The translations under genes were made by a program, and so were the position numbers. From positions 330,919 through 394,918 of the forward strand of contig NZ_KB893337.1 of the NCBI RefSeq assembly GCF_000374045.1: a stretch of DNA of 64,000 nucleotides, read 5' to 3'. Position 1 is the first letter of the stretch. The number at the start of each line of letters is the position of its first letter. This document shows positions 31,706 through 61,790 of the stretch, in pieces. The DNA is from Segetibacter koreensis DSM 18137 (GTDB lineage: Bacteria; Bacteroidota; Bacteroidia; Chitinophagales; Chitinophagaceae). Under the pieces are notes generated by a model. That model saw nothing but the letters and a program-made list of their open reading frames with translations, was not told the DNA's origin and searched no databases.

Positions 31706-34700
31706 TTGATTGCTAATCGAAACCCCGAACAACTTGTCCGCGACCAGATAGACAAGATGCTGCACGCATCGGGTTGGTTAGTACAATCAAAAAAGCAAAT
31801 AAACCCGGCTGCAAATATTGGTGTTGCCGTTCGCGAATACCAAACGAACGTTGGTCCTGCTGATTATATTCTTTTTGTAAACAAAAATCCAGTTGGAGTA
31901 ATAGAGGCTAAACGTGAAGAAGAAGGTGTACGACTTACAGTGCATAAAGACCAGACAGAAGGTTATGCAAAGGCGAAACTTCGGCTGATAGATAATGATC
32001 CTTTGGTTTTTGCTTATGAAAGTACCGGTGAAGTAACACGGTTAACTAATAAAAGCACTTCTCTTTCTCAAGACTTTTCTTCAAATGAAGGTTTTCCCGT
32101 ACTTTCCGGCAATAATAATATGACCACTAATTTTTTTACAAACCATAACGGAAACTCCCTCTTAAAGAAGTTCAATGGCGCCTTTGAGCACATCGCCACT
32201 ATATATGCTTTCCATGCTGTAGTTGGATATTTCAGGGCTTCAGGATATTACGCAATAAGGGAACATCTTATGAATGTACCCGAGGTAAAAATTCTTGTAG
32301 GCATCAATGTAGATTCTATAAGTGCTGAAGCGAAACGAAGAGGTCTGATGTTCTTCGGTGATCCAGAGAAAACCAGAGATGAGTTTATCCGATGGATGCG
32401 TCAAGACATTAAGGAGGCCGCTTATACCAAAGAAGTTGAAGATGGTATCCTTAAGTTCATGGAGGATATTATGGACAGGAAAATCCAGTTAAGGGTACAT
32501 AAAACGAAGAAACTTCACGCGAAGATTTACATCTTCCTGCCTCAGAACTATAATGAATACTCAGGTGGTGAAGTAATAACGGGTTCGTCTAACCTTACTG
32601 CTGCAGGATTGGGAATAGAAGACGAAGGAAATTATGAGTTTAATGTATCGCTAAGGGACTATAATGATGTTGCTTTTGCCGAACAAGAGTTTAAAAAGTT
32701 GTGGGAAGACGGAGAGGAGATTTTGCCTATAGACGTTGACAGGATAAAACATAAGTCGCACATAGGCCAACTGTTTACACCGTTCGAGATTTATATCAAA
32801 TTCCTGATTGAATACTTTGGTAAGAACATAGATTATGACCCCGATGCGGTCGGTGACCTGCCAAAGAATTTTAAAAAGCTGAGTTACCAGGTAGATGCAG
32901 TCAACCAGGGATACCAGATGATCTTAGATCATAACGGTTTTATACTCGCCGATGTGGTGGGTTTAGGAAAGACTGTTATTGCCAGCATGATTGCAAAGCG
33001 GTTCCTGATTGCTAATGGTAGTTTAAGTACCAAAATACTGGTTGTATATCCGCCACCATTAGAAAGAAACTGGAAGTCCACCTTCAGGCAGTTTGGTTTG
33101 GACAAGCATACCCGCTTTATTAGCAACGGAAGTCTTCATAAGATTTTGAAAGACGATGAAGATTATTGGCCCAAAGAAGATTATGACCTAATTTTGGTAG
33201 ACGAAGCACACAAGTTTCGTAACCACAAATCATTGATGTTTGATAATCTTCAAACGATTTGTAAAGCACCCAGAAGCATTATCGGCAATGTATATGGACA
33301 TCGTAAGAAGGTGATACTTATTTCAGCAACTCCGCTTAACAACAGGCCGGACGATATTTACTACCAGTTGCAATTGTTTCAGGATGCGAGAAAATCAACT
33401 TTATCTACTACCAACCTGCAAAGCTTTTTTGCTCCATTAATTAGGAGGTATAAGGAGGTGTTGGCTGCAGCTAAAGTGACCGGTAGGCCTGATTTAAATG
33501 CTTTACGCGGCATTTATGGAGACATAAGAGATAAGGTGCTTGAGCCGATAACCGTAAGAAGAACAAGAACCGATGTAAAAAATTACCCAGCGTATTTGCG
33601 GGACCTGGAATCACAGGGTATCAAGTTTCCGGATATTGCCCCTCCAAAGGCAGTTGAATATGAATTAGGCCCCGAACTAGAACAATTGTTTTACGATACG
33701 ATTGCTCACTTGGTAGATGAGATAGGCTATTTCAGGTACCAAGCAATAGCGTATTTACTTCCTGAGGTACAAGACAAGTATTACTCGCAAGCTGAAAGAA
33801 TTTCCAAGACACTAGCACAGATTATGATGACCCAAATGGTGAAACGTTTGGAGAGTTCTTTCTATGCTTTTAAAAATTCGCTTAATCGCTTTCGTATATC
33901 CACTCAGCGGATGATCACCATGTTCGAAAAAGGAAAGATTTATGTGGCACCGAGCACCAATATCAATTCCTTGATGGACCAGGACTGGAGTGATGAACAA
34001 ATTGAAGAAAAGATATTGGAGCTGTCTGCAGAAGACCCCAAGAACCAGATTTTTTCACCTGCTGACTTCCAGGAAGAATTCCTCGACTTGCTACACGCAG
34101 ACCTGCAGCATATAGAACATATATGCGACCAGTGGGAGGTTGTAACAGCAGATCCTAAACTGGATATGTTCAAGCAGCTGTTAAAAAATGAATTGTTCCG
34201 TCACGATATCAATAAAACAGGCAAGCTGGTCATCTTTACCGAATCGAAAGAAACTGCTATCTACCTTACTGAACAACTCAAATACCCGAAAACCTTGACG
34301 GTATCAGCTGAAAACAGGAAAGCGGTTTTTGATATCATTCAGAAGAATTTTGATGCGAATTATAGCGGCGAGTTTCATCACGACTATGACGTCATCATTT
34401 CAACCGAGGTATTGGCAGAAGGTGTAAACCTGCATCGCTCAAACATTATCGTCAACTACGATACCCCATGGAATGCTACCAAGCTGATGCAGCGTATAGG
34501 CAGGGTAAACAGGATAGGAAGTATTGCTGAAGTGATTTATAATTATGCCTTCTATCCTTCACGGCAAAGCGACCAGTTAATTAATCTGTACAACAATGCA
34601 TTCATCAAACTCCAGGGTTTCCATACAGCCTTTGGTGAGGATAGCCGGATATACACCGTAGAAGAGGTATTGGAACAGGTAAAGCTCCACACCCAGGGCA

Positions 34701-35419
34701 TTGGTGAAGACGAAGACAAGCGCCTTATTTACCTCCGCTTCATCCGTGAGTTTAAGGAAAAGAATGAGAAGGAGTTTAAACGCATTAGGCAGTTACCATT
34801 GAAAGCACGAACAGGACGCAAACCTGGTAAACAACACAAGGAGATAACTGGTGGAAGCCTCATATTTATGAAGTCGCCTTATAAACTGGAGTTTTATAAA
34901 CTGCATAAAAAAGTAACCATTGAACCCTTGACATTTATCCAGGCGGCTGAGATGTTTGAAGCCAAAGTGAATGAAGTGTCTGAAGCACTGCCCGATTATC
35001 ATCACAAGCATGTAGAAAAAGCGACTGCGCATTTTGAACAGGAATTATTTTCCAGTTCGATAGAAACTGTATCGGGCGAAACGGCAGATGCAAAAACCAA
35101 CCAAGCTAAAAAGTTTATACGCGAACTGCGTGCCGATAGCAGGGATGAGAAGTTTAGAAATGCGGCTGAAACCATTCTGCTGATGCTGGATAAGGGCACC
35201 ATTACCAATTTGTCAAGCGAACTCAACAAGCTACGGCTAAAGTACAACAAAGGCGATATAAAAGCACATGCCGTAGAAAACCTCATCATGCAGTATGCAG
35301 CCAAGTACGCCAGCATCAACAGCGAAATGGATGATGCAGATGCATTGGATGCACCACTCTTGCCATTAGAAATAACCCAGAAGCCGGATATTATTTTATC
35401 TGAAACATTTACCAGCTAA
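31706..35419 (+). CDS. PLD-nuclease/SNF2-family helicase with a fused HsdR-like N terminus
   Basis: A 1,237-residue defence-type ATPase. Residues 1-115 look like the N-terminal nuclease region of type I HsdR (NPEQLVRDQIDKMLHASGW, VGPADYILF, PVGVIEAKREEEG, VFAYESTGEVTRLTN). From about 139 the protein restarts as a normal PLD-helicase: MTTNFFTNHNGNSLLKKF, a PLD-like HxK in LHAKIYIF (269) and GSSNLTAAG. The helicase motifs are ADVVGLGKT (415), LVDEAHKF (497), SATPLN (541) and QRIGRVNRIG. The open frame starts at TTG 31706; an ATG at 32120 is probably the ancestral start of the helicase. It is the first gene of a five-gene operon. Confidence 0.88.
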   Translation: MIANRNPEQLVRDQIDKMLHASGWLVQSKKQINPAANIGVAVREYQTNVGPADYILFVNKNPVGVIEAKREEEGVRLTVHKDQTEGYAKAKLRLIDNDPLVFAYESTGEVTRLTNKSTSLSQDFSSNEGFPVLSGNNNMTTNFFTNHNGNSLLKKFNGAFEHIATIYAFHAVVGYFRASGYYAIREHLMNVPEVKILVGINVDSISAEAKRRGLMFFGDPEKTRDEFIRWMRQDIKEAAYTKEVEDGILKFMEDIMDRKIQLRVHKTKKLHAKIYIFLPQNYNEYSGGEVITGSSNLTAAGLGIEDEGNYEFNVSLRDYNDVAFAEQEFKKLWEDGEEILPIDVDRIKHKSHIGQLFTPFEIYIKFLIEYFGKNIDYDPDAVGDLPKNFKKLSYQVDAVNQGYQMILDHNGFILADVVGLGKTVIASMIAKRFLIANGSLSTKILVVYPPPLERNWKSTFRQFGLDKHTRFISNGSLHKILKDDEDYWPKEDYDLILVDEAHKFRNHKSLMFDNLQTICKAPRSIIGNVYGHRKKVILISATPLNNRPDDIYYQLQLFQDARKSTLSTTNLQSFFAPLIRRYKEVLAAAKVTGRPDLNALRGIYGDIRDKVLEPITVRRTRTDVKNYPAYLRDLESQGIKFPDIAPPKAVEYELGPELEQLFYDTIAHLVDEIGYFRYQAIAYLLPEVQDKYYSQAERISKTLAQIMMTQMVKRLESSFYAFKNSLNRFRISTQRMITMFEKGKIYVAPSTNINSLMDQDWSDEQIEEKILELSAEDPKNQIFSPADFQEEFLDLLHADLQHIEHICDQWEVVTADPKLDMFKQLLKNELFRHDINKTGKLVIFTESKETAIYLTEQLKYPKTLTVSAENRKAVFDIIQKNFDANYSGEFHHDYDVIISTEVLAEGVNLHRSNIIVNYDTPWNATKLMQRIGRVNRIGSIAEVIYNYAFYPSRQSDQLINLYNNAFIKLQGFHTAFGEDSRIYTVEEVLEQVKLHTQGIGEDEDKRLIYLRFIREFKEKNEKEFKRIRQLPLKARTGRKPGKQHKEITGGSLIFMKSPYKLEFYKLHKKVTIEPLTFIQAAEMFEAKVNEVSEALPDYHHKHVEKATAHFEQELFSSSIETVSGETADAKTNQAKKFIRELRADSRDEKFRNAAETILLMLDKGTITNLSSELNKLRLKYNKGDIKAHAVENLIMQYAAKYASINSEMDDADALDAPLLPLEITQKPDIILSETFTS

Positions 35420-35437
35420 ACCAATAGAACGATCGTC

Positions 35438-38400
35438 ATGGACCAGCAGACCCTTAAACGGATATTTGAAAAAGCATACGACTCTAGCGAATGGATAGAA
35501 GTAGCAAAAGAAGTTTTTAAAGCAGATAATATTCTTACCAAACCAGCTAAAATTAACCTGCCTGCAAACGACTGGGAAGCCACAGGTGTAGAACTGGGAA
35601 GCTTTGAAACCACGGATAACAGGCAGATTGGCTTGTATGAATTAACCATAGGACCTAAGGCACAATTGCACCGCAACAAAAAAGGGATGCGCGAACTATT
35701 GGCCAAAGTGTACAAAGAAGATGTGGATGCTGCGCTGATTGTATTTGTACAAGGCAACAAATGGCGGTTTAGTTATGTAAGCGAAATATATACCCGCGAC
35801 GATAAAGGCAGACGGCAAAAGAAATCAACCGACCCTAAGCGCTACACCTACCTTCTGGGTGAAGGTGAAAGAAGCAAAACCGCTGCGGACCGATTTGCCA
35901 AAGTAAGAACTACCGCCAGTCTCTTTAAAACAGGTGTGTCGCTCGAAACATTGGAAGAGGCGTTTAACGTAGAGAAGATGTCGAAAGACTTCTTCAATGC
36001 TTATCGTAAGCACTACGGTGCGTTTACGGCTTACCTCACCGGCGAAGATGAAAACAGCAAGGAAGTGTGCAAATCTGCTGCGGCCTTTACCTCTGTTTTT
36101 AAAAAAGACAAAAAATGTGCACGTGACTTTGTAAAAAAACTGCTGGGCCGTATTGTATTTATGTACTTCCTTGAAAAGAAAGGATGGCTTGGTGTAAAAG
36201 AGGGAGAAAAGTGGGGGGATGGTAACGAGAATTTTCTAAGGGATCTGTTTAGAGATACCAAACACAAGCAAAACTTTCATCCCAATGTATTGGTGCCGCT
36301 GTTCTATGAAACATTGAACACTGACCGAAAAGATGAATTGTTTAAAATAGATAAAAGCGAGTTTACCCACGGAGACTACCACAAACTGAAAATTCCTTTT
36401 CTGAATGGTGGCTTGTTTGAAAACGATATGCTCGAAGCAGACGGGCTGGTGTTGCCAGAAAAACTGTTTGCCGACCTGTTTACTTTTTTTGACCAGTACA
36501 ACTTTACCGTGTACGAAGACAGTCCCGATGAACATACCGTAGCGGTTGACCCGGAAATGCTGGGACATATATTTGAAAACCTGCTGGAAGACAATAAGGA
36601 CAAAGGCGCATTTTATACCCCGAAAGAAATTGTGCACTATATGTGCCAGGAAAGCCTGATAGAATATCTCTTTACTAAATTGAACGATCAGGGTGAAACG
36701 GTTAAAAGAGAATCAATAGAGAAATTGATTAAGCGTCAGGAAGCTGCAGAATTAATAGAATATGATGAAGCCATTTTAAAAGCTTTACGTGAAGTAAAAG
36801 TTTGCGACCCGGCTATTGGTTCAGGTGCGTTTCCCATGGGCTTACTAATGGAGATATACCACGCTGTTGAGGTCTTATATTTTGTAAGCCCTGATGTGAC
36901 GGAGAAAGTTTGGAAGATGAAAGACTGGAACCCGGCGAAAGTAAAGTCAGACATTATTCAAAACTCTATTTATGGGGTTGATATAGAAAAAGGTGCTGTT
37001 GATATTGCCCGATTACGTTTTTGGTTGAGCTTGGTAGTAGATGAGACAAAGCCACAGCCATTACCTAACCTTGATTATAAAATTGTAGTGGGAGATAGCT
37101 TGTTGAGCAAGTTTGAGAATCATGTAATTGACATTGAGTGGAACTATACTACTAGTCATGGTACGGCAGATACCAAAAAGCTTATTACTGAGCAAGTAGG
37201 CTTATTGCAGAGGCTTTCGGCATGGCAAGGTGCCTATTATAACCACAAAATAAACAAGGAAAAATATCAAAGAGACATTAAAAATCTAAAGATCGATATA
37301 CTTATCAATCAGCTTACTTTAAGCAGGAAAAGCTATAGAGACAAAAACAAAACCATTGTTCCTTTAGATGGGTTTCCTCTTACAGCTAAGCAGATTAAGA
37401 CTAATCTTGAGAATGATTTAGTTATTGCAGAATTCGATCAGAATATTCAAAAGCTGCAAACCATAAAGAAAGATGCTGCTGCAAAGCTTGAATTCTTTGA
37501 TTGGAGGCTTGACTTTCCTGCAGTAATGAATAGTAGTGATAAGAGTAAAGAAGGTTTTGACATTATAATTGCAAATCCTCCATATGTGGACATAAAAGGG
37601 CTACCTCCAGCACACGTCAAATCTTACTTTCTAACCTTTGCAACTTGCGAAAACAGAATAAATCTATACTCCATCTTTATTGAAAAATCTCTTCGCTTAT
37701 TACGAAACGACGCTTCACTTTGTTTTATAGTCCCCAATTCCTTGTTATTAAATAGTTCTTACAAAAAGATTAGAAATAGGCTCGTAAATCATCTAACTCA
37801 ATTAATTAAGTTACCTGACGCAATCTTCGAAAATGCAATAGTTGAAACCATAATTTTCCAAATTAAGACCTCAAACTTACTGGAGGAGATCAAAGGAAAG
37901 GTTTATCCTAATGATTTTAAAACTGACCTAAGAAATATTGTTTTTAATTCTTTTGAAAGATCGCAATGGCGAGAAGATCCCGAGAATAAATTTAATATTT
38001 TTTCGGATGGTATAGTATCAGCTTTATTGTTACATATGGAAAAGGACAGTGTTGCTTTAGAAACGTTGGCCGACTTTTCATTAGGAATTACACCGTACGA
38101 TAAATACAAGGGACATACTGAAGAACAAATTCGAAATCGCGTTTTCCATTCAGATAAAAAAACTTCAAAATTTCACGTGCCAATGATTTCCGGTAAAAAC
38201 ATTCTTCCTTATGTTGTTACCGATCAAATTGAAGAATATTTGGAATACGGAAGCTGGTTAGGAGCTGCAAGAGAAAAACGGTTTTTTATACAACCGAGAA
38301 TTATAGTTAGACAAATAATTTCTGGTAACCCTCCTCGAATTTATGCAGGGTATACCAGTATGGAACTTTATTTCACTCAAATCGGCTTTGCCATAACCAC

Positions 38401-38773
38401 GAATAAAGAAGATGATTTAAAGTATATTCTATGTATACTTAACTCTAAACTAATGAACTTTTATCATAAATATAAGTATTTAGATATCGAGAAAAATACA
38501 TTTCAGAAGATTCTGATAGCAAATTGCAAGAGATTTCCGATAAAGAAAGTAGATACAGAAACAAAGAAATCCCTAAGTAAATTAGTTGATAAAATTATTT
38601 CAAGAAAAACTGAAGAACAGATCGGTAACATAACAGAGGAAGCGACCATTGATAAATGGCTCTACAAGATATATGCCTTGAATTATACTGAAGCTTGCCT
38701 TATTGAAGGGAACAACGAGTGGATGACTAAAGAGGAGTACGAAGCGTTCACATTACCGGGAGAGAAAGAATAG
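35438..38773 (+). CDS. Eco57I-type adenine-specific DNA methyltransferase (BREX PglX-like size)
   Basis: A 1,111-residue N6-adenine methyltransferase. Motif I is VCDPAIGSGAFPMGLL (about 455) and motif IV is IIIANPPYVDIKGLP (about 713). A helical region lies between them and a C-terminal target-recognition region (about 800-1070) is followed by TEEEYEAFT-like text. The MLGHIFENLLEDNKDKGAFYTPKEIV segment is typical of this family. No PD-ExK nuclease was recognised at the N terminus. It probably marks self DNA for the PLD-helicase just upstream (18-bp gap). Confidence 0.9.
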   Translation: MDQQTLKRIFEKAYDSSEWIEVAKEVFKADNILTKPAKINLPANDWEATGVELGSFETTDNRQIGLYELTIGPKAQLHRNKKGMRELLAKVYKEDVDAALIVFVQGNKWRFSYVSEIYTRDDKGRRQKKSTDPKRYTYLLGEGERSKTAADRFAKVRTTASLFKTGVSLETLEEAFNVEKMSKDFFNAYRKHYGAFTAYLTGEDENSKEVCKSAAAFTSVFKKDKKCARDFVKKLLGRIVFMYFLEKKGWLGVKEGEKWGDGNENFLRDLFRDTKHKQNFHPNVLVPLFYETLNTDRKDELFKIDKSEFTHGDYHKLKIPFLNGGLFENDMLEADGLVLPEKLFADLFTFFDQYNFTVYEDSPDEHTVAVDPEMLGHIFENLLEDNKDKGAFYTPKEIVHYMCQESLIEYLFTKLNDQGETVKRESIEKLIKRQEAAELIEYDEAILKALREVKVCDPAIGSGAFPMGLLMEIYHAVEVLYFVSPDVTEKVWKMKDWNPAKVKSDIIQNSIYGVDIEKGAVDIARLRFWLSLVVDETKPQPLPNLDYKIVVGDSLLSKFENHVIDIEWNYTTSHGTADTKKLITEQVGLLQRLSAWQGAYYNHKINKEKYQRDIKNLKIDILINQLTLSRKSYRDKNKTIVPLDGFPLTAKQIKTNLENDLVIAEFDQNIQKLQTIKKDAAAKLEFFDWRLDFPAVMNSSDKSKEGFDIIIANPPYVDIKGLPPAHVKSYFLTFATCENRINLYSIFIEKSLRLLRNDASLCFIVPNSLLLNSSYKKIRNRLVNHLTQLIKLPDAIFENAIVETIIFQIKTSNLLEEIKGKVYPNDFKTDLRNIVFNSFERSQWREDPENKFNIFSDGIVSALLLHMEKDSVALETLADFSLGITPYDKYKGHTEEQIRNRVFHSDKKTSKFHVPMISGKNILPYVVTDQIEEYLEYGSWLGAAREKRFFIQPRIIVRQIISGNPPRIYAGYTSMELYFTQIGFAITTNKEDDLKYILCILNSKLMNFYHKYKYLDIEKNTFQKILIANCKRFPIKKVDTETKKSLSKLVDKIISRKTEEQIGNITEEATIDKWLYKIYALNYTEACLIEGNNEWMTKEEYEAFTLPGEKE

Positions 38774-38794
38774 AATGGATATAAACCAAATCTT

Positions 38795-39757
38795 ATGGCA
38801 ACCCTATTCACCCAACACCTTTACCAGCCTAAAAACAAGAGTGTAGTTCGGCTGGTAAGAAGCTTCCAACTAAACTATTCTCACACCTTTACTAAGGTTC
38901 GAAACCAGTGGTTGCCAGCAATAAGAGAGTTTCTTCGAGAAGAGACGGGTCTTAAAATGCACCAGAAGGTAATAGGGACTAAAATTCAAAAGGATAGTAA
39001 CATCAGTTTTCATTTTGTAACGGACAGAGAAGAAACATTCCTCAAACTGATTGATCAGCATTACCTGAACCTCGATTTTGACGAATACACTGCATTTAAC
39101 AAGCTGCGGTTACAAATGCAATCTTCTTCCAGGTTTTTTAAAAAGGAAGGTGAGGGGAGCGCTTTTTTACTGGATATCCTTGAAGAAAAGCCTCATGCGT
39201 CCTTTCATGAACTCGAGAATTACCTTGATGACTACTTTAAACAATACGATCTTAATAAGCTGATACAAACGCTTTTTAAGAATGCCGGCAGAACGGCAGA
39301 TATCTGGGGCACTTATACCTATGCTTCCAGTAGAGTTGAAGTTTATTATGTTCCCCTCATCTTGTTTTGCCAGATCAACAACCTTCCATTAGAGCATTCT
39401 ATTCTATCTACATTAGTTCACGAAATGGCACATGCCTATCACCACCTGGGTAAGGATAAAGACAACAGCCAATGGTCGGCCATGAATGTGACCGATAAAC
39501 ACATTGTAGAAGGGATGGCTGAATATTTTACGTGGCTATTTATTGAAGCCTACAAAGACAATCACCCGGGAATGGAAAAGACATACAGCTGCATGTTTAA
39601 CTGCCTGGCTGATGAATACACTTGTTTTAAGAAGTGGACACCAACGTATAGCAAGGAGGCAATTAAGTCTGCGCTACTAAGTACACGTCGTAAAGGTGTG
39701 AAAGACTATAACGAGTTTTTGAAACTGTTGCAAAGTGTAAAGACGATAATGCATTAG
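38795..39757 (+). CDS. HExxH zinc metallopeptidase in the restriction operon
   Basis: A 320-residue protein with an HEMAH zinc site (His about 209) and a downstream EGMAEYF that fits the third ligand of a gluzincin. The N-terminal 200 residues are unassigned and helical. The family resembles SprT-like or M48-type peptidases by eye, but it cannot be placed firmly. It lies 21 bp after the methyltransferase and 29 bp before mcrB, all on the plus strand, so it is part of the same operon. A role in cleaving a partner or phage protein is inferred. Confidence 0.75.
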   Translation: MATLFTQHLYQPKNKSVVRLVRSFQLNYSHTFTKVRNQWLPAIREFLREETGLKMHQKVIGTKIQKDSNISFHFVTDREETFLKLIDQHYLNLDFDEYTAFNKLRLQMQSSSRFFKKEGEGSAFLLDILEEKPHASFHELENYLDDYFKQYDLNKLIQTLFKNAGRTADIWGTYTYASSRVEVYYVPLILFCQINNLPLEHSILSTLVHEMAHAYHHLGKDKDNSQWSAMNVTDKHIVEGMAEYFTWLFIEAYKDNHPGMEKTYSCMFNCLADEYTCFKKWTPTYSKEAIKSALLSTRRKGVKDYNEFLKLLQSVKTIMH

Positions 39758-39786
39758 AAATTGAGAACAACTAACCCTGATACCCT

Positions 39787-42315
39787 ATGAGTGATGAAAA
39801 AATTACTTTTTTGCTTGTAAACCTGACATGGAATAGTAATAATTGGCAACAGCCAAGCGAAGACAAAAGCAATCATAAATGGGTCGACGCAGGTAATACT
39901 CCACATGAAAGCTGGAATTTTGACTTCAATAACGTAAGAAATACAAAAGAAGAAATAAGAGGTTATGCTCAATTTACGAAACCACCTAAAGTTACAGGTG
40001 CAAACAACCTCATTATTTTTCATTCACAAAACCAGATTGTCGGTTTTTACGGGAAAGCTGTGATACTTCCGAATGCTGTAGAAGTGAATGCCAAACAGAG
40101 CTTTAATCTTATAGCATCTAGAACTCTGGCTGTAGTATTAAGTAATAAGATTGTATCAGCAAAAGAGAAAGGATATTTTGATGGCAGAGAACGGATGGGG
40201 CAAGTTGGTTTTATATACCTCGAAACAGAAGAAGTTGTCGCATCGATGCTCAATGAAGCTTTGGAGTTAAATCCTCACCTGTCCTCGCAAATATTCGCAA
40301 TCAAAGCATGGGTGGGTATCAATGGAGATAAATCAACTAAGTATTGGGTCTTTCAAGCTAGCCCTAAAGTTTACAGGATTGTGGATGCATTAAGAGATGG
40401 AATATTGAAAACGTGGACAGTCAGTCAGAATAAGTCTAAGATTGGTATAGGCGATAAAGTAATCCTGTGGGCAACAGGAGCAAATGCCGGGGTGTACGCA
40501 CTTGCAACAATAACTTCTCCTGTTTATGAGACTAGCGACCCTGAGGAAGAATTGCCTTATTATACTGGGGTCGTTGACCAGCCGCAAATATCAGATAAAG
40601 TAGATCTCAAGTTAGATTACAATTTAGTAGATGATCCTATTTTGAAACCACGAGTTTTATCTCATGCTATACTCAAAGACTTAAAACATAGTGTGCAAGG
40701 GACAAACCTAGCAGCTACAGAAGACCAATACAACGCAATATTAAAATTGATAGAAGCTATGCCTGCAAACACAAACAACAACTCAATGCCTTTGAACCAG
40801 ATTTTGTATGGGCCTCCAGGCACAGGTAAGACATATACTACTATTGAAACAGCCATTCGCATTGCCAATCCGCAATTCATTTTTATTGACAGAACTAGAA
40901 AGGAGATTAAAGATGAATATGAAAGGCTGCAGAAAAAGGGCCAGGTAGAGTTTGTAACCTTTCATCAAAGCATGACTTATGAAGATTTTATCGAAGGAAT
41001 TAAACCGGTGGAGCCGAAGCCGGGTGATACTTTTTTGCAGTATGAAACGAAACCCGGGATTTTCAAAAGAATAGTAGCAAAAGCGTTGTTCACTCCTTCC
41101 TCAGAGAATAGTCGCTTCTCATTATCTGAAGATGATTTTACAAAAGCGACTTTTTATAAAATCTCGTTGGGGAATACAGCAAATCCGGACGATGACCAGA
41201 TTTTCCAATATTGTATGGACAATAATTGCATTGCGTTGGGCTGGGGTGATGCAATAGACTTTACAGGAAAGTCAGAAGCGGAAATTCAAAAAATGGTACC
41301 TGATCAGTTGGATAAGTTTGCCGCACAGGAAGTGAATATGTTTATTCACTATTTGAAGCAGGGAGATTATGTAGTGGTGAGCTACGGAAATTTATCTTTC
41401 AGGGCAATCGGCATTGTCACCGGAGATTACGAATATCGAAAGGTTGATGGCCTGGGAGTAAATCAATTTAAAAGTGTAAGGTGGTTGCTCAAAAATCAAA
41501 ATATCCCTGTTGAAGAGCTCTATTATAAACGATTTCAGCAGCAGACTTTGTACAAGCTGAATAAGGGAGAAATAAAGAAGGAGTTTTTCGTCAAAGGTGA
41601 AGCCAGTAACATACAGCCGCAAGTTTCCAAAGAGAATTATGTTCTTGTAATCGATGAAATTAATAGGGGCAATATTTCGCAGATTTTCGGTGAGCTGATT
41701 ACGCTTATAGAAGATGATAAACGAAAAGGGAGGGAAGAAGAGTTGGAGGTGTTGCTCCCTTACTCTGGTGAAAGGTTTTCTGTACCTGATAACTTATACA
41801 TCATAGGCACTATGAATACCGCTGATAGAAGCGTCGAGGCTTTGGATTCTGCTTTAAGACGTAGATTTTCCTTTATAGAAATGCAGGCAAATCCGAAACA
41901 TGAAGACATTGGCACAGATGTAACTATTGCAGGTAATTCTTTTGATTTTTCTGAAGTGCTAGCAACCGTAAACAAGCGTTTGGAAAAGCTTATAAGCCGT
42001 GATCACCAGATTGGGCATAGTTACTTTTTACCAAAAACCGGCTGGACATGGAATAACTATTTGCTTGCATTTAATAATAAGATCATTCCATTGCTGCAGG
42101 AGTATTTCTATGGCGATTACGCCAAAATGTGCCTGGTAGTAGGCAGAGGCTTTGTTGAGCTGCAACAGGAGCAAGATGATAGTAATACTAAGTTTTTTGC
42201 TGACGCTGAACATGACGCACTTGATAGTCTATTGGAAAAACAGGTGTGGCGTATCAAGCCAATAAATACAGAAGCTGATTTTGCTAACGCACTTAATCTA
42301 CTGCTGAATAAATAA
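39787..42315 (+). CDS. mcrB: McrB-type AAA+ GTPase with two EVE/PUA-like modules
   Basis: An 842-residue motor of a modification-dependent restriction complex. Residues 1-170 are a beta-rich domain. An EVE domain follows at about 185-300 (YWVFQASPKVYRIVDALRDGI, WTVSQNKSKIGIGDKVILW), then Walker A YGPPGTGKT (about 342). A second EVE/PUA-like block is inserted before Walker B (about 455-600: FYKISLGNTAN, CIALGWGDAIDFTGK, YVVVSYGNLSFRAIGIV). Walker B is VLVIDEINRGNISQIFGEL (about 620), followed by IIGTMNTADRS and LRRRF. Its stop overlaps the mcrC start by one base (TAATG). Confidence 0.93.
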   Translation: MSDEKITFLLVNLTWNSNNWQQPSEDKSNHKWVDAGNTPHESWNFDFNNVRNTKEEIRGYAQFTKPPKVTGANNLIIFHSQNQIVGFYGKAVILPNAVEVNAKQSFNLIASRTLAVVLSNKIVSAKEKGYFDGRERMGQVGFIYLETEEVVASMLNEALELNPHLSSQIFAIKAWVGINGDKSTKYWVFQASPKVYRIVDALRDGILKTWTVSQNKSKIGIGDKVILWATGANAGVYALATITSPVYETSDPEEELPYYTGVVDQPQISDKVDLKLDYNLVDDPILKPRVLSHAILKDLKHSVQGTNLAATEDQYNAILKLIEAMPANTNNNSMPLNQILYGPPGTGKTYTTIETAIRIANPQFIFIDRTRKEIKDEYERLQKKGQVEFVTFHQSMTYEDFIEGIKPVEPKPGDTFLQYETKPGIFKRIVAKALFTPSSENSRFSLSEDDFTKATFYKISLGNTANPDDDQIFQYCMDNNCIALGWGDAIDFTGKSEAEIQKMVPDQLDKFAAQEVNMFIHYLKQGDYVVVSYGNLSFRAIGIVTGDYEYRKVDGLGVNQFKSVRWLLKNQNIPVEELYYKRFQQQTLYKLNKGEIKKEFFVKGEASNIQPQVSKENYVLVIDEINRGNISQIFGELITLIEDDKRKGREEELEVLLPYSGERFSVPDNLYIIGTMNTADRSVEALDSALRRRFSFIEMQANPKHEDIGTDVTIAGNSFDFSEVLATVNKRLEKLISRDHQIGHSYFLPKTGWTWNNYLLAFNNKIIPLLQEYFYGDYAKMCLVVGRGFVELQQEQDDSNTKFFADAEHDALDSLLEKQVWRIKPINTEADFANALNLLLNK

Positions 42316-43550
42316 TGCCGGCCAAACAATACATACGTGTATTTGAGCACGCTACACTTCGTGAGAATGACGTAGTGGACGATGTCAAGTTTGAAGAGCA
42401 TCACTTAAAGGCGATGCAAGTATACTATGGAGCAAAGGGCAATCCCTATTACAACCTTACACACAAAGGTGTAAAGTTTACCTCTTATGTAGGCGTGCTA
42501 CAGGTTGCGGGATTAACGATTGAAGTATTGCCTAAAGCGGATAAGCAAGAGACAGATAAAACTGTATGGCACGGCTTCCTGGTAGATATGTTACGAACAG
42601 TTGGGTTGTTAGATACTTATGAGACCGGCACAGCATCCCTCAGGCTCAAGAGCCATTCCATATTAGACCTGTATATGAAGATGTTCGTAAAAGAAGTGCG
42701 TTACCTGCTGCAAACAGGATTGGTAAAGAAATACCGGAAGACAGAAAGCAACAGTTTCGCTTTAAAAGGTTCTTTACTGTTCTCAAAAAACCTTCAACAC
42801 AACCTGGTGCACGCAGAGCGCCTTTATGTTCGGCATAGCACGTATGATCGGGAAAACATTTTCAATCAGGTGTTATACAAAACGCTTTTGTTGCTCCGGC
42901 ATATCAACACATCATCCAATCTGGCGGGGAAAATAGAAAGCCTGCTGCTGGATTTTCCTGAATGTAACAACCTACAGGTAAATGATGTTTTTTTTGAAAA
43001 GTTGGTATTTGATAGAAAGACGGAAGCATACAAAAAGGCTATCCAGATAGCACGGTTACTACTGCTCCATTATCACCCTGATATACGAAAGGGAGGAAAT
43101 GAAGTCATCGCCTTAATGTTCGACATGAACAAACTCTGGGAAGCTTATGTATACAAGAAACTCCGTAAACAACTATTGGGTCGGTACACAGTAAGAGGAC
43201 AGGTAGGTACAGGATTTTGGCAGCCACAAACAGGTAGAACAGTTAGGGTGTATCCAGACATCGTTGTGTATGACTTGTCTGGAAATGTTGTTTGTATACT
43301 CGATACCAAGTGGAAGAACGTGTCCGGCAACAGCCCTTCTGATGATGATCTGAAACAGATGCTGGTGTATAACTTGTACTTCGGTTCGGTAAAGTCAGCA
43401 TTGTTGTATCCATCTACCAATGAATATTCCTTTGAAGGGACTTTTGCCAAAGATGGGCACGGAGAATGCCGGTTGAGCTTTATGCCATTGGTGCGGGAGA
43501 ATGGGAGTGTGAAGTTGTCGTTAGGAGAGGTGGAGGGGTATATTCGTTAA
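42315..43550 (+). CDS. mcrC: McrC nuclease subunit
   Basis: A 411-residue partner that supplies the nuclease of McrBC. The PD-(D/E)xK core reads VYPDIVVYDLSGNVVCILDTKWK (about 313-333). N-terminal text (LTHKGVKFTSYVGVLQVAGLTIEVLPK) is typical of McrC. The start ATG shares a base with the mcrB stop. It ends the operon; no terminator was seen, but a noncoding region of 364 bp follows. Confidence 0.93.
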   Translation: MPAKQYIRVFEHATLRENDVVDDVKFEEHHLKAMQVYYGAKGNPYYNLTHKGVKFTSYVGVLQVAGLTIEVLPKADKQETDKTVWHGFLVDMLRTVGLLDTYETGTASLRLKSHSILDLYMKMFVKEVRYLLQTGLVKKYRKTESNSFALKGSLLFSKNLQHNLVHAERLYVRHSTYDRENIFNQVLYKTLLLLRHINTSSNLAGKIESLLLDFPECNNLQVNDVFFEKLVFDRKTEAYKKAIQIARLLLLHYHPDIRKGGNEVIALMFDMNKLWEAYVYKKLRKQLLGRYTVRGQVGTGFWQPQTGRTVRVYPDIVVYDLSGNVVCILDTKWKNVSGNSPSDDDLKQMLVYNLYFGSVKSALLYPSTNEYSFEGTFAKDGHGECRLSFMPLVRENGSVKLSLGEVEGYIR

Positions 43551-44390: not shown

Positions 44391-44861
44391 ATGGAAAGCA
44401 AACTGAGTGTATCAGCATTGTACCAGGTAGCTGAAATAGAGCTAAAATACAAATCAAAAGTGAAAGCTTCTGACCGCCTCCAAATCGGATCTTCGAAAGA
44501 CGCTTACCACATTCTACTGCAGTTATGGGATCATAATAAAATCGAATTTATAGAACAATTTAAAGTGTTGCTTCTTAACAGAGCGCAGAAAGTGTTGGGT
44601 ATTTACGAAGTATCAACTGGAGGTATTTCCGGAACTATTGCTGACCCAAGAATAATATTCGTAGCTGCACTTAAGGCTAACGCGTCTGGAATCGTCATTT
44701 CTCACAACCATCCGTCAGGGAGTCTTAAGCCAAGCAGGCAGGATGAAGAACTTACTCAAAAGTTAAAACACGCTGGTCAATTTCTTGAGATCAAATTACT
44801 TGATCACATAATCATCACTAGCGAAAGTTACTTGTCATTTGCTGATGAAGGGCTGCTATAA
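44391..44861 (+). CDS. radC: RadC-family JAB-domain protein
   Basis: A 156-residue protein typical of Bacteroidota mobile elements. The JAMM metal site reads VISHNHPSG (His pair about residues 104 and 106) with the Asp in SRQDEEL. The N-terminal HhH domain of long RadC is absent, as usual for the ICE-borne type. Its biochemical role is unsettled; the historical DNA-repair label is not supported by sequence. A terminator overlaps its stop. Confidence 0.93.
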   Translation: MESKLSVSALYQVAEIELKYKSKVKASDRLQIGSSKDAYHILLQLWDHNKIEFIEQFKVLLLNRAQKVLGIYEVSTGGISGTIADPRIIFVAALKANASGIVISHNHPSGSLKPSRQDEELTQKLKHAGQFLEIKLLDHIIITSESYLSFADEGLL

Positions 44862-57828: not shown

Positions 57829-58224
57829 TTAACATAAAACGGGAGCGACCCATCTCCTAAAAAAACTCCTCCACTTCCCTTTTTTCTTCTGTTTGTAGTA
57901 TCGAATTTTATCCTTCTTCTCAGCTTGCCTTCCAGATTCTACTTCCCCTATTGTCCACTTCGGCGCATGTCTTATAGCGCTGTTAGTAATCCAATAATGA
58001 CTTCGGCACTTGAAGTTCCAATTGCCAATTGAAGGGTAGAGTGTAATGGTGTCACCGTCGAAAGTAAGCTTCCAATCTGTTGGCGATATTGGTGTAACAA
58101 CTTCATTACCACAGCCACACACACATTTGTGTATAGCTGTGCAGTATCGAAGTGAGATATACAAAAAACCTTCTCCTACATTTTCAGGAATTACTTCCAC
58201 AAATTTATGCTGTAGTGTCTTCAT
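57829..58224 (-). CDS. DUF6527-like zinc-site protein of the ubiquitin-like cassette
   Basis: A 131-residue protein with a likely zinc site: HKCVCGCGNEVVTP and later CRSHYWITNSAI. The text LTFDGDTITLYPSIGNWNFKC resembles DUF6527, which is found next to ThiF and multiubiquitin genes in bacteria; this is recognised from memory. Its role is unknown; an E3-like or processing function is only inference. Its start overlaps the E1 gene by 20 bp. It ends the operon. Confidence 0.7.
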   Translation of the reverse strand: MKTLQHKFVEVIPENVGEGFLYISLRYCTAIHKCVCGCGNEVVTPISPTDWKLTFDGDTITLYPSIGNWNFKCRSHYWITNSAIRHAPKWTIGEVESGRQAEKKDKIRYYKQKKKGKWRSFFRRWVAPVLC

Positions 58225-59383
58225 TCTGTAATTGTGCTACATTGATTGAATAAGATGAATGGTGCTCTTCCCGCAAATCCTGATAAAAGCCACTCAATTT
58301 TTTCCACTTCATTACAGCCATTACTGCATTTAAGCAGTTGAGGTCGGCAATCTGAACATTAGTGGAATACTCATTATTTTCATCTTCCTCAAAAGATATC
58401 CGATTTGAAAGATGGTCGTTTTTGTGAACAGTGCCCGTTGTAACCCTGATGGTTCCAACAAGCTGCTCATTTGCAATATTTACTCCAAGTCCTACATCGA
58501 TGAATGGGATCTTAACCTTCAATAAATGCTGAATAATCATTCTCCTTGCTACATCGTTATCGACGCAAATGAAAACGTAGGACATCGCGTCAAGCTCTGT
58601 TAGGTTGGTATCGGTGATGTAGTAAGCGTGTTCCTTAATTCCTTTGTGGAGCTTTAAGTACATTTCAGCATAGTAGCTTACCTTTTTCATCTTCTTGTTG
58701 AGGTGCTCGAGGGACGCTGCCCCCGGTGACCTAAAGGCATTGTGCTGTAAGAACTCATCGCCGTCGTAGGTATGTATATCCTTAACCGGCGCCTTTGCCA
58801 CCAAATCGAGAATATAAGCACCTGTACCACCCATACCTATGATAGCTATTCTTTGTTCAAGGAACTTGGAATTAATGTGAGCAACATTGGCTCTACTTGA
58901 ATTAGTGTCTACATAGCTAAACACAGTTTCTGCGTCATCATCTGCTATGACATCGAACGTTTTTTCCGTAAGTGATGCGTCCAAAGATTTAGCAGGTGCA
59001 GTGATTATCCGGGCATAGGTAGTTACCTTTTCATAAAAGTCGGCATATCCATTTGCAGGTTTATTAGAGAACGAGCGATTGACTGTGAACCCATCTAACA
59101 GCTTCTGCTCTCCGACACCATGCTGAATTGCAGTAATGATGTTTCCATCTTTGTCGCAAGGCTGGTCGCCGATAAAAAACATCACATGAGTATTAGGCTT
59201 TGCTGTCGTTGAATTATTCACCAAATTCAATTGGCTTACCAAAATGCCTCGCTTGACTTCCTTCTGAGTGTTTACATAAGGTATATGGTGGATAACTAAG
59301 TATCCACCTTTTACCTGTATTGCAAAACCTTCATCCCTCAATTTTTTGAGGTCTTTACTATGATTTATTAGTTGCTGTGACAT
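58205..59383 (-). CDS. ThiF/E1-like adenylyltransferase with DUF6791-like N terminus
   Basis: A 392-residue enzyme expected to adenylate the C terminus of the multiubiquitin protein. The N-terminal 170 residues (GGYLVIHHIPYVNTQKEVKRG, FYEKVTTYARII) are the domain typical of bacterial ThiF proteins in these cassettes. The catalytic part has IIGMGGTGAYILDLV (about 183), YDGDEF..HNAFRSPGA (Arg finger), FICVDN and a later Cys in ADLNCLNAV. ATG 59383 is preferred; ATG 59419 would extend the overlap with the upstream gene. No E2 gene is visible, so it may act alone or with a host factor. Confidence 0.88.
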   Translation of the reverse strand: MSQQLINHSKDLKKLRDEGFAIQVKGGYLVIHHIPYVNTQKEVKRGILVSQLNLVNNSTTAKPNTHVMFFIGDQPCDKDGNIITAIQHGVGEQKLLDGFTVNRSFSNKPANGYADFYEKVTTYARIITAPAKSLDASLTEKTFDVIADDDAETVFSYVDTNSSRANVAHINSKFLEQRIAIIGMGGTGAYILDLVAKAPVKDIHTYDGDEFLQHNAFRSPGAASLEHLNKKMKKVSYYAEMYLKLHKGIKEHAYYITDTNLTELDAMSYVFICVDNDVARRMIIQHLLKVKIPFIDVGLGVNIANEQLVGTIRVTTGTVHKNDHLSNRISFEEDENNEYSTNVQIADLNCLNAVMAVMKWKKLSGFYQDLREEHHSSYSINVAQLQNEDTTA

Positions 59384-60044
59384 TGAATACCATTTTATGT
59401 TTAACAATAATTTTGTCACCTTTTACCATGCTGCCTTCCGGATTTTCCTTTGGTCCCTTGGCATAGGTTACTGTATAAATGGTATTCGGATTGCTGTTTT
59501 GAACACCAAATGCGAGTGATGCTACTTGGTCAAAAGTTATAGTCTTTTCTACCCAAGACTTCTCTCTGCCGTTAACAATTAGAACAACTTGCACAAGTTT
59601 TTCCTTAGAGAAGAAATTTTCAATTCCGGGTCTGGCAAGGTCGACGAACTGTTCATCTTTAATTAATTCATCCTCCCATGGGCCTTTAATAGAGAGAAAG
59701 ATTTCATCGTCAGCAGAAATTGCGCCTTGCCGCCGTATATCACCACCTTTGATGTACTGCTTGTTTGTTTCGAACTCCTGGCAGTTGATCGTGTACTTAA
59801 GCTTCTGCTTAATAAAGAACTGCTCGAGTCCTGGACGAGCTAAGTCAACCAAATCCCCATCGTTAACGGGCTCATCTTTCCACGGTTCTGATATCGAAAG
59901 ATATAATTCTCCATCAAGGGGAAGATTTGCAGCTTGTTTTACTTGCAAACCTGTAATGTACTGATCATTCCATTCGAATTGCTTTCCTTCAGCAGAGAAT
60001 GGTAATGTTTTGTGACCTTTGGCCACTGAGCTTATATTTTCCAT
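59358..60044 (-). CDS. Multiubiquitin protein (three ubiquitin-like domains)
   Basis: A 228-residue protein with three beta-grasp-like repeats. Repeats 1 (about 12-78) and 2 (about 80-148) share YITG/YIKG..., LSISEPWKDE/LSIKGPWEDE and LVDLARPGLEQFF/FVDLARPGIENFF. Repeat 3 (150-222) is the multiubiquitin-family type (VNGREKSWVEKTITFDQVASLAF, YTVTYAKGPKENPEGSMV) ending FNVTATNKS. There is no terminal GG, so processing, or attachment by another residue, must differ from eukaryotic ubiquitin. The stop overlaps the E1 start. Confidence 0.85.
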   Translation of the reverse strand: MENISSVAKGHKTLPFSAEGKQFEWNDQYITGLQVKQAANLPLDGELYLSISEPWKDEPVNDGDLVDLARPGLEQFFIKQKLKYTINCQEFETNKQYIKGGDIRRQGAISADDEIFLSIKGPWEDELIKDEQFVDLARPGIENFFSKEKLVQVVLIVNGREKSWVEKTITFDQVASLAFGVQNSNPNTIYTVTYAKGPKENPEGSMVKGDKIIVKHKMVFNVTATNKS

Positions 60045-60292: not shown

Positions 60293-60709
60293 TTATGCTG
60301 CTTTTATTAGGTTATATAATTGAATTATCCTTTGATCTTTTATTAATGTCAGAAATAGTTGATCGAATGGAACCGACGTGACAAAGCATTTCTTAGCCTC
60401 TTCTACTAAAAAATGATCTTCTTCGGAAGAAGCTAAAATGGCGCCTTGTTTAGAGAGCGCCACGTATAAAGAGCTTAAATCGGTCAATGATAGGATTTTC
60501 TTTTTGCCTTTCGCCCAATCGTCAAAATCGTTCATTTCAAAGTGAACAATTTCCACATGATCTGAAGCCTCAATAATTTGACGAACTCTTGAACTGTAGT
60601 GATGTAGTCTAAGTCCCGATACCGTTATCGAACAACATTGAATAAGATGGACAAGTATCTTATGCTTGTGGAGTCGCTCTAACAGTTCGATATCGTTTAC
60701 TACATACAT
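60293..60709 (-). CDS. PIN-like partner of the XRE-ImmA/IrrE protein
   Basis: A 138-residue protein. MYVVNDIELLERL at the start and LSLTDLSSLYVALSKQGAILASSEEDHFL give the spaced acidic residues of a PIN-type ribonuclease. It lies 1 bp after the ImmA/IrrE gene, an arrangement seen for toxin-antitoxin-like pairs in which an XRE-metallopeptidase controls a nuclease. This is inference from the gene order. Confidence 0.65.
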   Translation of the reverse strand: MYVVNDIELLERLHKHKILVHLIQCCSITVSGLRLHHYSSRVRQIIEASDHVEIVHFEMNDFDDWAKGKKKILSLTDLSSLYVALSKQGAILASSEEDHFLVEEAKKCFVTSVPFDQLFLTLIKDQRIIQLYNLIKAA

Positions 60710-60710
60710 C

Positions 60711-61790
60711 TTAATTGACGCTAAATTTTAGTTCTTCAATCTCTCTTCTAAACAGGTCAATTTTTCGGTCACCCAACTCTGCTGCCTTGCCAATAGAAAG
60801 TCTTTTCTCCACAACAGCCTTAACCAAGAGCTTTTGAAATCGGCTGGCCTTCTCATTTGACCTATATTGGCCGAACTCCTTAGAGGGTTCTTTACCGTTC
60901 CATTCCTTATATGATGTCCACCAACATTTATAAGTTTCTTGGTTGATGAAGTTGGAATTAAAAGCCCTCATTATTATTGCTTGAATAGATATTCCGTATA
61001 ATTCTTTGATACTTTTCAATTCCGCAAGTGTAATTATCGTACGGTTTTTACCTAACTCATTATATAATACATCATCTACAAGTAAAACTGCACCAGCGAA
61101 AGAATCACAGAACCATTCAATTTTTGTATCAGTGGTATCAGGAGGAAGTTCTAATACGATGTGCCCAAGCTCATGCAATGCAGTAAACCTTTTCCTTTCA
61201 ATTGTAAGACAGTTCTCATTGAGAACGACTACTGGTAACGCATCGTTTGCCATTGCGCTTAGGCCCGTAAAGTCTTCGTACCTCGTGACCTCTACAACAA
61301 AGACACCTTGACTCTCTAACGTTTCTACGACGTCTGTGATTGGCGCGTTTCCAATTTTCCACTTTTTCCGAACTAATTTAGCGGCCTTTTCTACGTCCTT
61401 TTGGCCATGAATCTTAAGGTCTTTTACCGGATTATCGAACACTTGTCGTTCCTCGACAATCTCAGAAACTTCCAAAAATTTGGACAGGTACCGACTTACT
61501 TCCTCCTTTAATTCTTTTTCAAATTCTGGATTTACTATCTTATGCTTCTCCCGGAACTTAATGTTTTGGAACTTGATTGAAAACTTTTCATCGTTTTCGT
61601 AAAAGAAGGAAAAAGGAACATTTAATACGTCAGCAAGCTTAAGTAAGGTTTCACTGCTTGGTGAAACGACACCGTTTTCGAACTTATGAATCGATTGTTT
61701 TGCAACCCCTACTTCTTCAGCAAGCTCCTGTAACGAGAAATTCTTTTTCTCTCTGAGTTGTTTAAGTTTCTGTGCAAATGAATTCTTCAT
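60711..61790 (-). CDS. XRE-ImmA/IrrE-family metallopeptidase regulator
   Basis: A 359-residue protein. The N-terminal XRE helix-turn-helix reads FAQKLKQLREKKNFSLQELA. The ImmA/IrrE zinc peptidase has the HELGH motif in FTALHELGHIVLEL with Glu in WFCDSFAGAVLL. The C-terminal part (KAAELGDRKIDLF) is a further helix. It probably represses its own operon through a 14-bp inverted repeat 31 bp upstream and could cleave a repressor on induction. Confidence 0.88.
   Translation of the reverse strand: MKNSFAQKLKQLREKKNFSLQELAEEVGVAKQSIHKFENGVVSPSSETLLKLADVLNVPFSFFYENDEKFSIKFQNIKFREKHKIVNPEFEKELKEEVSRYLSKFLEVSEIVEERQVFDNPVKDLKIHGQKDVEKAAKLVRKKWKIGNAPITDVVETLESQGVFVVEVTRYEDFTGLSAMANDALPVVVLNENCLTIERKRFTALHELGHIVLELPPDTTDTKIEWFCDSFAGAVLLVDDVLYNELGKNRTIITLAELKSIKELYGISIQAIIMRAFNSNFINQETYKCWWTSYKEWNGKEPSKEFGQYRSNEKASRFQKLLVKAVVEKRLSIGKAAELGDRKIDLFRREIEELKFSVN

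Follow-up and report, generated by a model that had tools for sequence, protein, structure and literature searches.

A serine-ended multi-ubiquitin cassette with a DUF6791–ThiF enzyme on a conjugative element of Segetibacter koreensis

Results

In the 64,000-nucleotide stretch of the Segetibacter koreensis DSM 18137 genome analyzed here (contig NZ_KB893337.1; hereafter, the window), three overlapping genes encode a multi-ubiquitin-like protein, an E1-like (ubiquitin-activating) enzyme with DUF6791 and ThiF domains, and a DUF6527 protein. We found the ubiquitin-like protein to end in serine and this serine-ended tail to be under selection of its own. The cassette may be a protein-tagging system complete in itself: the serine tail would be adenylated by ThiF, Cys76 would let DUF6791 act as a built-in E2 (ubiquitin-conjugating) enzyme, and the DUF6527 protein would choose or hold the target; our confidence in this reading falls just short of even.

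The Cassette and Its Serine-Ended Tail

A preliminary description of the window had reported the three genes with overlaps of 26 and 20 bp, and both the genes, all on the minus strand, and the overlaps hold. In searches with Pfam hidden Markov models, the ubiquitin-like protein (59358–60044, 228 amino acids) matched Multi_ubiq (PF14452, 2.2e-35) in three stretches, and the DUF6527 protein (57829–58224, 131 amino acids) matched PF20137 (2.8e-25). The E1-like enzyme (58205–59383, 392 amino acids from its ATG) matched ThiF, as had been described, and also carries an N-terminal DUF6791 domain that had been overlooked. The 3′ end of the ubiquitin gene overlaps the start of the E1 gene by 26 bp (59358–59383), and the E1 gene overlaps the DUF6527 gene by 20 bp (58205–58224). 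The list of open reading frames (ORFs) starts the E1-like protein at an upstream GTG (59419); we preferred the ATG at 59383, since this is where the relatives begin, as does NCBIfam model PRK06153 (NF004805; matched over positions 1–391 with 592.8 bits, the cutoff being 352). The genes also belong together, as proposed earlier, with the same gene order and the 26-nt overlap kept in the relatives read.

The covalent beta-grasp tags that have been studied well attach through a glycine at the C terminus. The protein in the window ends FNVTATNKS (59361–59387), with a free terminal serine (codon 59361–59363), and the non-glycine end noted in the preliminary description (TATNKS) is real. A database search over clustered proteins at E 0.001 gave 833 matches to the ubiquitin-like protein, 5,555 to the E1-like enzyme, and 2,646 to the DUF6527 protein, with 120 of each listed. 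All 120 listed ubiquitin-like proteins, the window's own included, have Ser as the last and Thr as the fourth last residue; none has Gly within the last six residues, and no listed serine-ended protein extends past the Ser. Judged from its sequence, the modifier has no C-terminal glycine, whether exposed or after trimming. More distant members on plasmids end in VQS (Rhizobium), IQS (Acinetobacter), and DKS (Pontibrevibacter and Leptolyngbya), and the overlap is likewise 26 bp in all four plasmid cassettes read. Among solved multi-ubiquitin chains, sequence relatives are 9cd2 (4.8e-20), 9d59 (4.6e-8), and BilA (8u38, 2.7e-4); the first, deposited in the Protein Data Bank (PDB) as "ZDHYS365 multi-ubiquitin domain protein" and of the same ubiquitin family, ends VTQTDKS.

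The overlap between the ubiquitin and E1 genes allowed the two reading frames to be told apart. Among 41 distinct overlap sequences, 39 place the E1 ATG identically; TTG stands in its place in one, and the last is a broken-gene fragment. We compared the 29 distinct 27-nt overlaps having that ATG, with four plasmid cassettes added. The first and second bases of the Ser codon are invariant in these 29 overlaps, even though the first is also the third base of an E1 codon, where a T/C exchange would be silent. There is no such constraint on the third base, the second of E1 codon 8, and E1 residue 8 is accordingly His, Leu, or Arg. With the first two bases fixed and the third free, the serine must be kept for the ubiquitin frame and not for the E1 frame; the tail is under selection of its own.

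Such an end need not be an attachment site. Hub1 is a glycine-less ubiquitin-like protein acting without covalent attachment, and the protein studied here could similarly work as an assembly or binding module, its tail being a recognition end for partners. The lack of Gly near the end of the listed proteins fits this explanation, as does the capacity of bacterial ubiquitin-like proteins to oligomerize, indicated by the title of Gong et al. (2025). The adenylation-site residues of the ThiF part, however, are complete and kept in 56 of 56 aligned rows, which favors a catalytic role with the tail as the simplest substrate, and we consider a purely noncovalent role unlikely.

Two Cassette Classes and the Place of E2 and JAB

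The preliminary description had seen no separate E2 or JAB peptidase gene beside the cassette. This was borne out, and a search for such genes regularly lying just outside the cassettes of relatives did not reveal them: we scanned 174 of the 260 neighboring ORFs listed, and no family of the E2 or JAB kind had more than one match among them. DUF6791 was found in 14 of 395 genomes of the window's phylum, at 16 places, and Prok-E2_E had no match in the window's own genome or in any of these 14 cassette genomes. One Prok-JAB match in the window's own genome is on contig C4, the cassette being on C24. None of the 14 DUF6791 genomes has a JAB match near the cassette; in the seven with matches, these lie on other contigs or, once, ∼875 kb away. 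A gene of RadC type, with a JAB fold, is present among the conjugation genes at 44391–44861 of the window, at a distance of 13 kb from the cassette. Conjugative elements commonly carry RadC genes, and for that reason we did not count it as the missing JAB.

No genome among the 395 has both DUF6791 and Prok-E2_E. Multi_ubiq occurs in 22 of them, the 14 with DUF6791 and eight without, and 24 ORFs taken from the loci of those eight included matches to ThiF (8), Prok-E2_E (7), JAB (5), and DUF6527 (3). On these distributions we distinguish two classes of cassette, which share the ubiquitin, ThiF, and DUF6527 proteins and differ in having either DUF6791 or, in what we call the sister class, Prok-E2_E, often with JAB. 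The Synechocystis plasmid pSYSX (locus L069) exemplifies the latter: like the window, it has Multi_ubiq, ThiF, and DUF6527 genes in the same order, with helix-turn-helix (HTH) and ImmA/IrrE genes adjoining; unlike the window, it has a separate Prok-E2_E gene second in the row, a JAB domain fused to the E1, a tail ending TTTEG, and no DUF6791. By annotation, ubiquitin, E2, ThiF, and DUF6527 genes are also found on plasmids of Oscillatoria, Rhizobium phaseoli, and Bradyrhizobium. Plasmids of Methylomagnum and two of Sinorhizobium have no separate E2 gene, and there the pSYSX E2 match falls in the multi-ubiquitin gene. It had been implied that nothing takes the place of E2 in the window's cassette; this was not supported, as DUF6791 sits where the sister cassettes have Prok-E2_E and JAB.

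In a Chroococcidiopsis sister cassette (L117:3401–4768), an IS4 insertion element lies directly behind a Mov34/MPN (JAB-type) gene; no ThiF gene is annotated in that stretch, and a SAVED gene follows further on.

DUF6791 as a Candidate Fused E2

The DUF6791 domain (PF20590, 2.1e-56) spans residues 10–160 of the E1-like enzyme (58904–59356). Its Cys76 (codon 59156–59158) is the sole strongly conserved cysteine of the enzyme, present in 57 of 58 aligned rows; H66, S106, and K108 are conserved besides. A profile comparison with hhalign between DUF6791 and 17 Prok-E2_E sequences gave a score of 22.6 and a P value of 0.0042 (0.0045 in the reverse direction), which is the best among 18 family pairs compared. 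None of 100 column-permuted profiles reached that score (best 19.5), and a reversed control scored 12.6. The other DUF6791 pairs gave P values of 0.22 (JAB), 0.17 (its own ThiF), 0.47 (DUF6527), and 0.75 (ubiquitin), and Prok-E2_E against that same ThiF 0.061 to 0.12; a positive control, ThiF against the sister-class ThiF, gave 2.2e-20. The profiles are suggestive of a weak likeness between DUF6791 and Prok-E2_E. E2 domains are ordered as helix, four strands, active-site loop, and helix. In a full-length structure model of the enzyme, DUF6791 opens with a helix and four strands, continues with a loop that holds Cys76, and closes with two further strands and a helix. Separate overlapping ORFs encode DUF6791 and ThiF in two genomes belonging to the same family (L063 and L067), and DUF6791 can therefore be a protein of its own. 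From these features we infer that DUF6791 may be a fused, divergent E2.

Another function for DUF6791 would be to replace JAB and not E2, acting as a deconjugating or processing enzyme while conjugation proceeds free of any E2. The domain sits at the N terminus of the E1, the same place as JAB in the pSYSX E1, and its conserved H66, S106, and K108 beside C76 fit this reading. Its profile shows no likeness to that of JAB, though, and resembles Prok-E2_E better, and we regard a JAB substitute as distinctly unlikely.

The ThiF Domain and the Chemistry of the Tail

The ThiF adenylation domain comprises residues 173–300 (58484–58867; Pfam match, 9.3e-10). It has no conserved catalytic cysteine: C273 is found in 45 and C350 in 15 aligned rows, and none of the cysteines in the ThiF part approaches the conservation of Cys76. 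The full-length model has a mean predicted local distance difference test (pLDDT) score of 87.9 and a predicted template modeling (pTM) score of 0.64. Foldseek ranked BubCD (PDB 9ea4 and others) first, followed by MccB and PaaA. These structure searches were dominated by the ThiF part and say little about DUF6791, which was left unmatched to the N-terminal part of BubCD. A profile search matched MccB as well (1.7e-5), with BubCD again above it.

MccB, the E1-like enzyme of microcin C7, shares the ThiF fold and, without a catalytic cysteine, activates a non-glycine end, the C-terminal Asn of its peptide substrate MccA. The ThiF part could modify the tail itself in the manner of MccB, in which case the ubiquitin-like protein would be no tag but a substrate or carrier, and the MccB and PaaA matches accord with this. 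Yet BubCD ranks over MccB in both kinds of search, MccA is a short peptide and no beta-grasp protein, the sister cassettes carry E2, and the conservation of Cys76 would be left unexplained; we judge an MccB-like modification to be improbable, although worth weighing. The ThiF part is also related to ThiF and MoeB, as in a sulfur carrier system of the ThiS/MoaD kind. ThiS and MoaD, however, need a terminal glycine thiocarboxylate, and the recurrent neighbors listed include neither a rhodanese nor a sulfur gene, making sulfur transfer a very remote prospect.

A Working Model

In the protein-tagging reading that we prefer, the ThiF domain would adenylate the C-terminal serine carboxylate of the ubiquitin-like protein, after which the tail would move either onto Cys76 in the fused DUF6791 or directly onto the target. 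The DUF6527 protein, a predicted zinc protein, may select or hold the target as an E3 ligase would, and a neighboring XRE/ImmA-IrrE protein may control the cassette, whose role on mobile elements could be in defense or stress. If the modifier is synthesized with its end already final, JAB might be dispensable: the listed serine-ended tails are unextended, and extended tails of the sister class would need trimming, a task that JAB could do. We hold this step with less conviction, and the argument for it is weak. Taken as a whole, the design could be one-way tagging, with a final-form modifier, serine activation, transfer within one polypeptide to a cryptic E2 cysteine, no JAB, and three overlapping genes; we put forward this fuller scheme tentatively, as a possibility and no firmer.

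Beyond the selection of the best P value among 18 pairs, several points weigh against these proposals. The likeness between DUF6791 and Prok-E2_E has an hhalign probability of 8% and a confident alignment over no more than the first 40 columns; a pair taken as unrelated, DUF6791 and the sister-class ThiF, already reaches a score of 19.1 and a P value of 0.047. Cys76 is replaced by Tyr in one relative (L036), and Prok-E2_E itself has no conserved cysteine, so that likeness to it alone predicts no thioester. We know of no precedent for a ThiF enzyme activating the terminal serine of a ubiquitin-like protein, and the DUF6527 protein matched no solved fold. Finally, we read nine ubiquitin tails of the sister class: in six, zero to eight residues come after TTEG, and three differ; four of the six are without extension and end exactly TTTEG, one of them, on pSYSX, nonetheless together with a JAB domain. 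A finished end alone therefore does not explain the absence of JAB, which may serve deconjugation.

If correct, the proposal would give a role to DUF6791 and DUF6527, both Pfam families of unknown function, and it names single residues, the terminal Ser and Cys76. A large, serine-ended mobile family, kept by selection despite the gene overlap, would widen E1 chemistry.

Relation to Known Systems

The cassette class is not new. Table 1 of Iyer et al. (2006; PMC1779556) lists, in footnote b to row 6e, polyUbl operons in which a domain X replaces JAB on the E1 and a zinc-finger-like protein is also encoded. The variant has one to three ubiquitin-like repeats and a non-JAB domain at the N terminus of the E1, and the three Multi_ubiq stretches and the DUF6791–ThiF enzyme, which has no JAB match, agree with both; DUF6791 is probably domain X. 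The footnote refers to proteobacteria and one actinobacterium, whereas the window is from Bacteroidota. The authors suggest a JAB-like (deconjugating or processing) role for domain X, and the passages concerned name no conserved cysteine, tail, overlap, or relation to E2.

The DUF6527 protein of the window has a predicted zinc site of C34, C36, C38, C73, and H76, all invariant in 38 of 38 aligned rows. The metal-binding signature given for row 6e by Iyer et al., C-x3-C-x(35-38)-H-x2-C, fits the DUF6527 family member of pSYSX; here the spacing is C34-x3-C38-x34-C73-x2-H76, with the last two ligands in the other order.

The Bil system (BilABCD) likewise has a multi-ubiquitin protein, related in sequence to that of the window. 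As described in PMC11354881, Bil has an E2 with a catalytic Cys, the JAB-type peptidase BilC, and a glycine end; the window's cassette has no Pfam E2 (nor its genome a Prok-E2_E) and no JAB in the operon. The likeness to Bub is that of the ThiF part to the E1 fold of BubCD. The names DUF6791, DUF6527, and PRK06153 and both Pfam numbers were absent from the 5.39 million papers searched, and recent Bub or multi-ubiquitin papers outside that set may treat the serine end or DUF6791; the serine-tail chemistry is possibly new.

Spread of the Cassette

The cassette is spread widely but patchily and often on mobile elements. DUF6791 and ThiF are both present in all 120 best listed E1 matches. Scanning genome contigs yielded 37 loci, with the ubiquitin gene upstream in 34 (the remaining three start at a contig edge) and DUF6527 downstream in 36 (the remaining contig ends 48 bp after the E1). 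In the phylum set, the three genes are in order at all 15 loci fetched, these being the DUF6791 places other than the window's own. The E1-like protein has matches in 115 of 72,556 plasmid records, and in 108 the match covers 80% or more of the protein; 83 of the 115 are typed conjugative or mobilizable. None of 50,697 phage records matches it.

ORF coordinates and lengths are identical among the cassettes of Paenimyroides, two Pedobacter, Pelobium, and Chryseobacterium (L007–L011), which suggests recent transfer. Mucilaginibacter oryzae (L026) has two oppositely oriented cassettes on a single contig (119–2277 and 5352–7603). In Sphingobacterium cellulitidis (L028:5321–7493), the source of the broken-gene fragment above, the ubiquitin, E1, and DUF6527 genes are in several ORF pieces. 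The same locus, on contigs both 92,608 long, appears under the unrelated organisms Pontibacter mangrovi and Amaricoccus solimangrovi (L003 and L004), which points to contamination of one assembly.

Surroundings and Candidate Partners

The window is a conjugative element of Bacteroidota type, with a relaxase, a YWFCY coupling protein, TraG, TraM, and TraJ. The preliminary description had placed the cassette in a defense-rich area of an integrative and conjugative element, and such surroundings are real: a block at 31706–43550 has, in a row, genes for an SNF2/PLD helicase, a type IIG restriction-methyltransferase, a 320-amino acid protein without clear family, and EVE/AAA and McrBC proteins. An antiphage role of the cassette is plausible.

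Upstream of the cassette is a candidate regulator (60711–61790, minus strand), a protein with XRE-HTH and ImmA/IrrE (Peptidase_M78) domains (HTH_3, 2.9e-18; Peptidase_M78, 3e-12). Its PADLOC matches are RmrA (5.3e-48), capP (5.1e-13), and capH (2.6e-11). Near full-length relatives with 34 to 46% identity are found beside L002, L003, L004, L057, L058, and the sister-class L104, and partial or weak matches at three further loci. ImmA/IrrE is the commonest family among the scanned neighboring ORFs (12 of 91 and 9 of 83). According to two studies, 70% of Multi_ubiq proteins adjoin such loci, read as toxin–antitoxin pairs (PMC4963859), and the DNA-damage regulators CapW or CapH plus CapP accompany 219 of 544 Bub operons (PMC13373217); either interpretation could apply to the XRE/M78 neighbor.

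Between the regulator and the cassette lies a gene for a 138-amino acid protein (60293–60709, minus strand), PIN-like by eye only and a candidate member of the cassette; it matched no family above the cutoff and has no relative in the compared loci. In the sister-class locus L104 (2872–4421), a 367-amino acid XRE-M78 relative (46% identity) is followed by a 148-amino acid gene, the same two-gene layout as at 60293–61790 of the window. DUF2188 genes, found in 5 of the 91 neighboring ORFs, stand beside cassettes of both classes (L119:2086–2313, L123:4758–5003, and L126:2100–2333), and DUF2188 is a possible small partner.
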